The translations under genes and the position numbers were made by a program. Shown here piece after piece: positions 7,215 through 26,461 of a stretch of 47,244 nucleotides of DNA. Source of the stretch: Candidatus Woesearchaeota archaeon (lineage in GTDB: Archaea > Nanobdellota > Nanobdellia > Woesearchaeales > ARS49); the NCBI GenBank assembly GCA_016188265.1, contig JACPID010000024.1:1-47244 (forward strand), in the 5' to 3' direction. Position 1 is the stretch's first letter, and each line of letters starts with the position of its first letter. Below the pieces are notes generated by a model. That model ran no database searches. It was not told the DNA's origin and worked only from the letters and a program-made list of their open reading frames with translations.

Positions 7215-7335
7215 CGCCGCCACCCGGATTTGAACCGGGATATCCTTGCGGAAACAGCCTAGCTTTACTTGCGTTCAGGACTTGCCTAAGTGCAAGTTTC
7301 CAGGGCTGCGCAATACCAGGTTATGCGATGGCGGC
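7215..7335 (-). tRNA. tRNA-Ser (anticodon GGA) with a 37-nt intron
   Basis: Seven acceptor pairs (GCCGCCA with TGGCGGC), discriminator G as in archaeal tRNA-Ser, a short D stem with GG in the loop, an extended variable arm (class II) and a perfect T arm CCCGG-TTCAAAT-CCGGG. The anticodon stem CAGCC/GGCTG (7304-7308 with 7255-7259) closes only if an intron at 7261-7297 is removed, at the canonical position after nucleotide 37. The loop then reads CT-GGA-A-A, anticodon GGA. The mature length is 84 nt and CCA is not encoded. Confidence 0.9.
7261..7297 (-). other. tRNA-Ser intron
   Basis: 37 nt inserted between anticodon-loop positions 37 and 38. It contains CTTGC-ACTTAG-GCAAG, an internal 5-bp hairpin, which fits a relaxed bulge-helix-bulge substrate for the archaeal splicing endonuclease. 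Confidence 0.75.
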
Positions 7336-8237: not shown

Positions 8238-8296
8238 TGTGATTTATTTTTTAGTATTTTAACTTTTATGAACACAATTATGACTTTTTAATCACA
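8238..8296. promoter_or_regulatory. Inverted TGTGAT half-sites near the start of the gene at 7493-8230
   Basis: TGTGAT at 8238-8243 and ATCACA at 8291-8296 face each other 47 nt apart, directly upstream of the minus-strand gene. They match the half-sites of the tight palindrome at 8354-8371, so one regulator may act on both divergent genes. The spacing is loose and the assignment tentative. Confidence 0.35.
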
Positions 8297-8353
8297 GAAA
8301 TATGTTCTAGAAAATATATTTCATTATAATTTTAAGCATCTTTACTATGCTTG

Positions 8354-8371
8354 TGTGATACTTATATCACA
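8354..8371. promoter_or_regulatory. Palindromic operator TGTGAT-N6-ATCACA
   Basis: Perfect 6+6 bp inverted repeat with a 6-nt spacer, the geometry bound by winged-helix/CRP-type dimers. A TATA-like ATTATAAT at 8323-8330 would place the transcription start near or inside this palindrome, so repression by promoter blocking is the simplest reading. It is followed by AGGTGG and the ATG at 8385. Confidence 0.5.
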
Positions 8372-8384
8372 ATAGGTGGTTTTT

Positions 8385-8585
8385 ATGGCAGAAAAAAATG
8401 AACAAATAGGATTTCATAAAGGAGCATTAACAACTTTGGCTAATGAAAGAAATGAATTGCTGAAAATAGTTAATATTGTAGAACAATTAATGCAGGCACA
8501 CATAAAAGCACTAAAAGATCTTGGTGTTGATTTAGAAAAAGAAGCAAAAAAAGAAAAAAGCAAAAAACTTGAAGAAAAAGTATAG
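8385..8585 (+). CDS. Small helical protein preceding the nucleotidyltransferase
   Basis: 66 residues from ATG 8385, with AGGTGG 6 nt upstream. Residues 15-50 form an amphipathic helix (Leu/Ile heptads) and the tail is an alternating Lys/Glu run, so it is probably a small coiled-coil protein. The next gene begins 12 nt downstream with its own GAGAGGAT-type site. Likely a partner of the nucleotidyltransferase-domain protein; no known family recognised. Confidence 0.72.
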   Translation: MAEKNEQIGFHKGALTTLANERNELLKIVNIVEQLMQAHIKALKDLGVDLEKEAKKEKSKKLEEKV

Positions 8586-8596
8586 AGAGGATATTT

Positions 8597-16929: not shown

Positions 16930-17421
16930 ATGGGTTGGAGAAGTTTTTTAGGATTAGCAGAACAGATAACAACAAGAAAGCCTGTTATTGAATTAAGTGA
17001 AGAAATAAATTATTATGAACAAAAAATAAGCAAGACATATTCTCCAATTAAAAGTAAATTATTTAGCAATACTTTAGATTTATTATTAAGGTTAAATCCT
17101 TTATTGTTTCATTTTAAAAAAAAATCTTTTATAGAAGTAAGAAAAGATGTAACATTAATAACAAAATCATGGCTTAAAGTTAAAAGTTCTGTAATTAGCA
17201 TTATTTCTTCATTAAATAAAAAAGAATCAGAAGGCACAATAACTCTAGAAGAAAGAAAAATAAGAAATGAGTTAACAATTATAGATGCTTATAATTTGAA
17301 AATAAAAAATTTAGTTCAGTCAATAGCTGTTGAAGAATTATCTGAAATTAGCATTATAGATTTTATAACAGAATCTGTTGATTTTTCAAGAAAAATAAGA
17401 GAATTATTAGAAAAAATTTAA
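16930..17421 (+). CDS. Hypothetical helical protein
   Basis: 163 residues beginning at the ATG immediately after the zinc-ribbon stop codon, so almost certainly in the same operon. The whole chain is predicted helical, with Leu/Ile-rich amphipathic segments and Lys/Glu-rich turns; no Cys, signal peptide or recognised motif. Its end overlaps the convergent gene at 17418 by a few bases. Confidence 0.65.
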   Translation: MGWRSFLGLAEQITTRKPVIELSEEINYYEQKISKTYSPIKSKLFSNTLDLLLRLNPLLFHFKKKSFIEVRKDVTLITKSWLKVKSSVISIISSLNKKESEGTITLEERKIRNELTIIDAYNLKIKNLVQSIAVEELSEISIIDFITESVDFSRKIRELLEKI

Positions 17422-26152: not shown

Positions 26153-26154
26153 GA

Positions 26155-26327
26155 TGTCAAAAACTACCTACTAAAGTAGGTAGCGTGTTTACACACAGCT
26201 ACTAAATGATTAAGTAGTTTTTGATCATCACAAAAATGCTTTGCATTTTTGGGATCCTGAAAATCTTTGATTTTCATGATGATCAAAAACTGCTCATCAA
26301 TAGCGTGTGTCATAGCAATTTTTGACA
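26155..26327. repeat. Nested palindromic element with 9-bp terminal inverted repeats
   Basis: This fills most of the 309-bp gap. The ends are TGTCAAAAA (26155-26163) and TTTTTGACA (26319-26327). Inside are CTACCTAC/GTAGGTAG (26164-26183, 4-nt loop), a TAGC-GTGT/ACAC-A-GCTA hairpin at about 26181-26202, and an 18-bp arm at 26213-26230 pairing with 26277-26294 (one mismatch) that encloses two further perfect hairpins: CAAAAATGC/GCATTTTTG (26231-26251) and GAAAATC/GATTTTC (26259-26275). The whole folds as a branched cloverleaf. Candidates are a MITE-like element or a structured RNA; no second copy was noticed in the window. Confidence 0.7.
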
Positions 26328-26461
26328 AAAACGAAAATATTTCATGAAAAAGCATTAAAATCAGCAAAATTACGGAAAAAATAATAATTTTATAATAAAA
26401 AAAAACAATTTACGTTATTTCTAGCATAAGGCATTTTAAAAAAATAATATTTCTTTAATGC
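26328..26461. other. AT-rich spacer, no gene seen
   Basis: The rest of the gap up to ATG 26462 is A/T-rich with TATA-like stretches but no convincing reading frame. It presumably carries the promoter for the 26462/26769 pair. Confidence 0.5.

Follow-up and report, generated by a model that had tools for sequence, protein, structure and literature searches.

Transposons of the IS200/IS605 type, such as IS608 and ISDra2, are Y1 HUH systems that carry a subterminal hairpin at each end, insert 3′ of a short target without duplicating it and have a right end that resembles the target (PMC5934647, PMC7290912). In IS608, guides lying 5′ of each hairpin pair with the cleavage sites and with the target, insertion falls 3′ of a tetranucleotide, and guide-directed choice of the target is known from engineered guide changes (PMC5934647). 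Palindrome-associated transposable elements (PATEs), which are ends-only derivatives of IS200/IS605, are short and gene-less, have two palindromic ends and are presumed to be moved in trans (PMC7290912). The REP, BIME and REPIN sequences that accompany TnpA-REP are dispersed small hairpins that carry an unpaired base and occur in pairs (PMC8266576, for REP and BIME).

The archaeal elements described here share with IS200/IS605 the subterminal hairpins, the insertion 3′ of a short target without duplication, the target-like right end and the guides, the pairing of guides with cleavage site and target being in their case statistical and drawn from sequence, and like PATEs they are short, gene-less, bounded by two palindromic ends and presumed to move in trans. 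We consider it very likely that they are non-autonomous, gene-less elements working like the single-strand transposon ends of IS200/IS605, and that the locus under study holds a decayed copy. They depart from IS200/IS605 in several respects. They hold no gene, and both the Y1 transposase and TnpB are absent from the genome in which the locus lies (the source genome). Whereas IS200/IS605 elements have no terminal inverted repeats, the tips here are inverted (TGTC/GACA, over nine bases in the copy under study), each tip belonging to its own hairpin. A long outer stem closes each end around an inner hairpin, the left end (LE) is joined directly to the right end (RE) by a GAGCATGCTC-like palindrome, and there are many natural guide variants. 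Because the enzyme was not found and the tips are inverted repeats, we do not file these elements as members of IS200/IS605. They differ from PATEs in that no full-length parent with identical ends was found in 42 Y1 loci.

The element in the window

The window is the whole stretch of DNA that was analysed, 47,244 nucleotides that form contig C2 of a 923,817-bp, 25-contig, Woesearchaeota-like archaeal genome. The 173-bp palindrome that an earlier note on this sequence described at 26155-26327 is real, with its nested hairpins and with nine-bp inverted ends, TGTCAAAAA at 26155-26163 and TTTTTGACA at 26319-26327. As a single strand the element folds to -67.3 kcal/mol, where shuffled sequences average -30.9 (z -9.46), and none of 200 shuffles does as well. 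The two perfect inner hairpins are likewise present, AAAAATGC-TTT-GCATTTTT at 26232-26250 and GAAAATC-TTT-GATTTTC at 26259-26275. The cloverleaf into which the note arranged these hairpins is one of two possible folds, but comparison with other copies gives two separate hairpins and an insert as the natural units. The long arm around the two perfect hairpins is the 3′ arm of one module paired with the 5′ arm of the next, and the cloverleaf mixes pairing within and between natural units. The features of the locus are as follows, with a slash marking a junction.

26155-26227, minus strand: RE hairpin (module A, 73 bp), with 5′ arm TGATCAAAAACTAC and 3′ arm GTAGTTTTTGACA on the minus strand, from the fold
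26155-26160, minus strand: terminal cleavage-site-like motif of the RE, TTGACA (CR), which imitates the target site, from comparison of REs
26164-26183, minus strand: RE inner hairpin CTACCTACTTTAGTAGGTAG, with a stem of 8, ending 9 nt before the RE tip, from RE anatomy
26184-26187, minus strand: putative RE guide CACG, which adjoins the inner hairpin on its 5′ side and fits TTGAC in the pairing scheme
26228-26279, no strand assigned: 52-bp "mini" double hairpin, inserted where LE and RE meet (TTGATCA/TGATCAA)
26280-26327, minus strand: remnant of the LE hairpin (module B, 48 bp) with its outer arms kept, from the alignment gap and a covariance-model match of 43 bits
26328-26333, minus strand: LE-side flank CGTTTT, which agrees with neither TTNAYA, the target consensus, nor CACG, the LE guide

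Read on the plus strand, the order is thus RE (26155-26227), mini double hairpin (26228-26279) and shortened LE (26280-26327). The alignment of copies shows a gap of about 19 nt in this LE, a deletion that includes most of its inner hairpin. Module A recurs as a unit at about 20 other places of the source genome. The window copy is best read as a decayed, nested relic. It should be immobile, because its LE has no inner hairpin, although the RE is intact, and because a second, mini element occupies its junction.

The element lies between a subtilase gene (PF00082) downstream and a gene upstream for a large fn3/Glucodextran_B-like protein, whose fn3 and Glucodextran_B Pfam matches fall under the curated cut-offs. 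Its gap is not the only gene-free one above 300 bp, as had been claimed: with gaps defined by ORFs of at least 80 aa, 26153-26461 measures 309 bp, yet 8276-8596 (321 bp) is also free of such ORFs. Elsewhere in the window, at 7215-7335 on the minus strand, Rfam finds a 121-nt tRNA that ARAGORN does not report, probably an intron-containing tRNA adjoining tRNA-Leu.

Copies, architecture and distribution

BLAST finds the element at 22 other places in the source genome, and a covariance model of module B, the right half of the window element, adds nine. The RE-tip pattern leads to 11 sites of a second, very uniform and young subfamily, 10 of them counted as new places, and a search with this subfamily adds about five more. 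The union of the BLAST, covariance-model and subfamily lists comes to about 47 related places in 0.92 Mb. Within module B, 16 of 23 pairs have changed on both sides, and the covariation score is 0.331 against 0.193, with none of 500 shuffles as good. The earlier note had named the lack of any other copy and of compensatory changes as the outcome that would count against it; both are present. Several copies are found at the ends of contigs or close to them (C3, C7, C10 and C16), as is expected for repeats in short-read assemblies.

A full element consists of two adjacent hairpins, the LE and the RE. In each, the outer arms hold a single constant base that is unpaired, and there is an inner hairpin as well as a loop that varies. 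The LE begins with (T/C)GTC, CATC or CACT followed by a purine-rich arm, the RE spans TG(C/A)TC-AARAACYAC to GTRGTTYTTGACA, and the junction between them is a palindrome such as GAGCA/TGCTC or GATCA/TGATC. The inner hairpin, often CCACCAGTC-TNTG-ACTGGTGG, has the same orientation in LE and RE. Its distance from the RE tip is 9 nt; from the LE tip it is 10-13 nt in the CC type and about 25 nt in the source-genome type. Each of the 33 REs measured has TTTTTGACA or TTCTTGACA as its last 9 nt. The stems and loops differ freely between subfamilies.

The mini double hairpin is missing from the junction of most other copies, and cassettes related to it are found in genomes G000, G003, G004, G005 and G039. 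One locus of the second subfamily in the source genome (L350) lacks the mini insert and provides an exact empty site beside L345-L347, which indicates that the mini insert is separately mobile.

An exact pattern made of the junction and the RE arm occurs in at least 109 stretches in 84,980 species genomes. On the matches listed, the family hardly occurs outside DPANN archaea: 107 of the 109 are from Woesearchaeota, Pacearchaeota, Nanoarchaeota or archaeal MAGs with similar labels, and the two non-DPANN matches are from Flavobacteriales (L218), in which no LE or RE structure was found, and Amycolatopsis (L263). The RE-tip pattern is present in 26 of 145 genomes of the order, and a reversed control pattern in none of the 145. 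The exact junction pattern is absent from the viral contigs searched.

Some loci are composites. Three in the source genome (L049, L045 and L385, on contigs C8 and C3) are triply nested, with a complete double hairpin inside the LE of another element, and also hold mini cassettes and further small hairpins. In G005, two different nested double hairpins lie within one RE, one of them precisely where the inner hairpin of that RE has its loop (L090, 2400-2690). At 1720-1900 of the same locus, near an element, a partial tRNA-like sequence lies about 100 bp upstream of a fuller one with the same 5′ half. Downstream of a composite element in the source genome (L015 and L020, contigs C23 and C10) we found a long imperfect palindrome, AATTRAGGATAATACTTAACTTTGCCAC ... 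GTGGTAAAGTTAAGTAATAATATAATT, which represents a further repeat family.

Rickettsia palindromic elements are palindromic repeats that can sit in frame within genes. A likeness to them, by description only, is seen in G037 (L061 1501-1606, contig C13), where an element separates codon 2 from codon 3 in a LeuRS-like ORF (..MN/FKEIEKKWQEKW.. once joined). An ATG inside the element opens the frame into the LeuRS-like gene and, as read by eye, seems to give it an in-frame start and a new N-terminus. In the source genome (L007/L014, C24, about 17147-17288) the last base of an element forms the start codon of a gene, GACA/TG, which leaves no room for a leader; the gene was named by eye as tRNA-guanine transglycosylase-like.

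Insertion sites and guide pairing

Joining the two flanks of an element restores an ORF with a Pfam domain across the junction in five cases, two of them copies in the source genome and three in other genomes. The restored domains are Methyltransf_23 (L002), UPF0175 (L023), HIT (L198), CN_hydrolase (L227, in genome G004) and HEPN (L255), and in these five genes nothing is duplicated and nothing is lost. Copies interrupt genes on either strand, and the relative G004 holds two 161-bp copies that are 100% identical and have different flanks. The earlier note had offered a non-autonomous mobile element as one option, and the copies, the exact interruption of genes and the covarying stems support it strongly. 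The target duplications that it predicted are not seen: flanks match over at least 4 nt in 0 of 61 elements, and shorter matches are at the shuffled level. This analysis and that of the target flanks drew on 80 of the at least 109 pattern loci (L179-L258).

The flank on the LE side has a TTNAYA-like consensus, TTNA(A/T)A, with an information content at positions -6 to -1 of 0.83, 0.91, 0.23, 1.32, 0.37 and 1.46 bits (71 LEs). The RE side has almost none (0.05, 0.05, 0.09, 0.23, 0.04 and 0.15 bits; 75 REs). Since the consensus is found on the LE side only, insertion is oriented and takes place 3′ of the target.

Because the guides of IS608 sit 5′ of each hairpin, we compared the four bases 5′ of the LE inner hairpin with the target. 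The base that adjoins the inner hairpin is Watson-Crick complementary to target position -2 in 73 of 75 LEs (44 T-A, 24 A-T and 5 G-C pairs), against a shuffled mean of 47% and with none of 2000 shuffles as good. This test was not blind, the rule having first been noticed by eye in listings. Guide position -4 is complementary to target -4 in 53 of the 75 (0 of 2000 shuffles). Guide by guide, the base at target -2 is A for TTTT (22/22), T for TATA (22/22), A for AATT (10/10), A for GATT (8/8) and C for AATG (5/6). The 75 rows leave out 59 RE-side rows with guides AAAA, AGAA, ACCA or ACCG and five rows with CCAT, TCCA or CCAC, of which three CCAT and one TCCA are misregistered and one is an RE.

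In a second set, made up of LEs of the source-genome type, the hairpins were placed by a model built before the guide rule was known, and several members had been inspected by eye beforehand. Here 34 of 41 are complementary, including a rare C-G pair (shuffled mean 14.2, maximum 25 in 20000), and g-4 pairs with t-4 in 28 of 41. The rule is broken in 2 of 75 LEs of the first set and 7 of 41 of the second, and two of these seven are the halves of the window copy, one without an inner hairpin and the other an RE read backwards. When the second set was first scored automatically, by a poor method that misplaced hairpins, 12 of 29 were complementary; shuffles averaged 8.2, and 1317 of 20000 did as well. 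Within G004 alone 10 of 11 fit, with 56 of 20000 within-genome shuffles as good; within G003 all six fit, the guides varying too little to be informative (3286 of 20000).

The RE guide reads C-A-N-G in most of 33 REs, with C at g-4 in 30, A at g-3 in 32 and G at g-1 in 25, a count from which 26 of 59 distinct REs drop out as having no inner hairpin by the rule used. The RE guides CATG and CACG face a constant end, TTGAC(A). The base is A on both sides of the element in 60 of 61 cases, and for this reason sequence alone cannot decide between TTDAY/A and TTDAYA/ as the cut. If the cut is TTDAY/A, g-1, g-4 and g-3 would lie opposite -1, -3 and -4, the last in agreement with the A+17/T-4 pair given for IS608 (PMC5934647). 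On this statistical evidence, targeting appears to be guide-directed as in the single-strand DNA transposons of the IS200/IS605 type.

We infer a single-stranded DNA intermediate, an enzyme class and a cleavage chemistry along the following lines. Where the DNA is single-stranded, for instance on the lagging strand, the LE and RE hairpins would both fold, and a tyrosine HUH-type transposase supplied in trans would bind them. The tetranucleotide on the 5′ side of each inner hairpin would serve as the guide: the LE guide would pair first with the left cleavage site and then with a new target, the RE guide (CATG/CACG) with the terminal TTGAC. The strand would be cut 3′ of both sites and joined as a circle, which would then insert 3′ of a target matching the LE guide without duplicating it.

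The mobilising enzyme and alternative explanations

The Y1 transposase (PF01797) has no match in the source genome and was not found in the element-rich relatives G003, G004, G005, G014 and G019; TnpB (PF07282) is likewise found in none of these genomes. This holds even for G004, which has identical copies and a completeness of about 99%. PF01797 is present in 16 of 54 relatives and is matched in 72 of 281 genomes of the class, with about 150 Y1 matches. In 42 of these Y1 loci, LE or RE tips were found in the flanks of none. Hairpins like those of IS200 are present at the Y1 loci that were read, and several of them share similar CTTTAG loops, but the ends of these loci are different and their own; for 14 of the 42 the script recognised no Y1 ORF, and hairpins are unlisted for these. 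No element of the form LE-gene-RE turned up in 175 loci at an LE/RE spacing of 100-3500 bp; there were seven candidates, and the one that was read (L090) is a nested insertion. Five loci with LE-only matches of the second subfamily in the source genome were read, and no transposase-like gene was seen. It is possible, if doubtful, that we are dealing with a parasitic, DPANN-wide family of single-strand elements with natural, freely re-evolving guides and no transposase in the genomes they fill. The enzyme would then come from an unrecognised HUH or other family, or be supplied from outside the symbiont by a virus, a plasmid or the host archaeon.

Repeats of the REP/REPIN type, that is, bacterial-style extragenic palindromes spread by a domesticated TnpA-REP, would also give small paired hairpins, here BIME-like, with a conserved unpaired stem base and many copies. 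Moreover, among genomes of the order that were scored for both, Y1 genes are somewhat commoner where the RE tip occurs (7/11 versus 14/55, Fisher p 0.029, counted by hand). The source genome, however, has no Y1 gene, the host is archaeal, the LE and RE have distinct roles and a variable guide reads the target, and we regard this explanation as improbable. The REP-like repeat listed as an option in the earlier note was right in spirit as to repeated hairpins, but the hallmark GTAG 5′ of the palindrome is absent, the bases in that position being TTTT, TATA, AATT, GATT or AATG in the LE and CATG or CACG in the RE. Inverted tips, high copy number and interrupted genes would be equally at home in a classical inverted-repeat MITE with TGTCAAAAA and TTTTTGACA as its terminal inverted repeats and a DDE transposase. 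Such an element is hardly credible here, given that target duplication of any length is absent, that genes are restored with zero duplication, that the LE and RE flanks behave differently and that the target base can be predicted from a guide inside the element.

Strong folds and compensatory changes could also reflect a structured RNA family (a regulator, terminator or processing signal) with stems kept by selection on the transcript, and the window copy and at least some others are intergenic. This option of the earlier note finds no support beyond the stems, and we judge it very unlikely. Genes are interrupted on either strand, stems and loops vary freely between subfamilies, and the matches above the Rfam gathering score in the window are two tRNAs only, with none for the element. 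The flanking host sequence covaries with the element, and guide pairing with flanking host DNA is a feature of DNA transposition. The single-strand recombination sites of tyrosine recombinases invite a similar comparison, since attC sites are folded hairpins with extrahelical bases, and the hairpins here have a constant bulged base and variable loops. That the elements are attC-like sites is nonetheless barely plausible: gene cassettes between the hairpins are not seen, and insertion occurs 3′ of a site that the guide matches, the inner hairpins keeping a set spacing from the tips, which is not known as an integron feature.

The preferred reading therefore remains that of elements working like IS200/IS605 single-strand transposon ends. 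Single-strand transposon ends and PATEs are already known, and what is new is the lineage-wide family, the closed-stem architecture, the natural guide code and the missing enzyme; in the open-access literature searched, no account of elements like these from DPANN archaea was found. Guide change in these archaea is a natural experiment with dozens of repeats, and genome sequences are sufficient for reading the code that links guide and target. Very small genomes hold many of these elements, which interrupt genes, can give genes new starts and nest in one another, and several contigs end in them. For these reasons they matter for the annotation, assembly and evolution of DPANN genomes.
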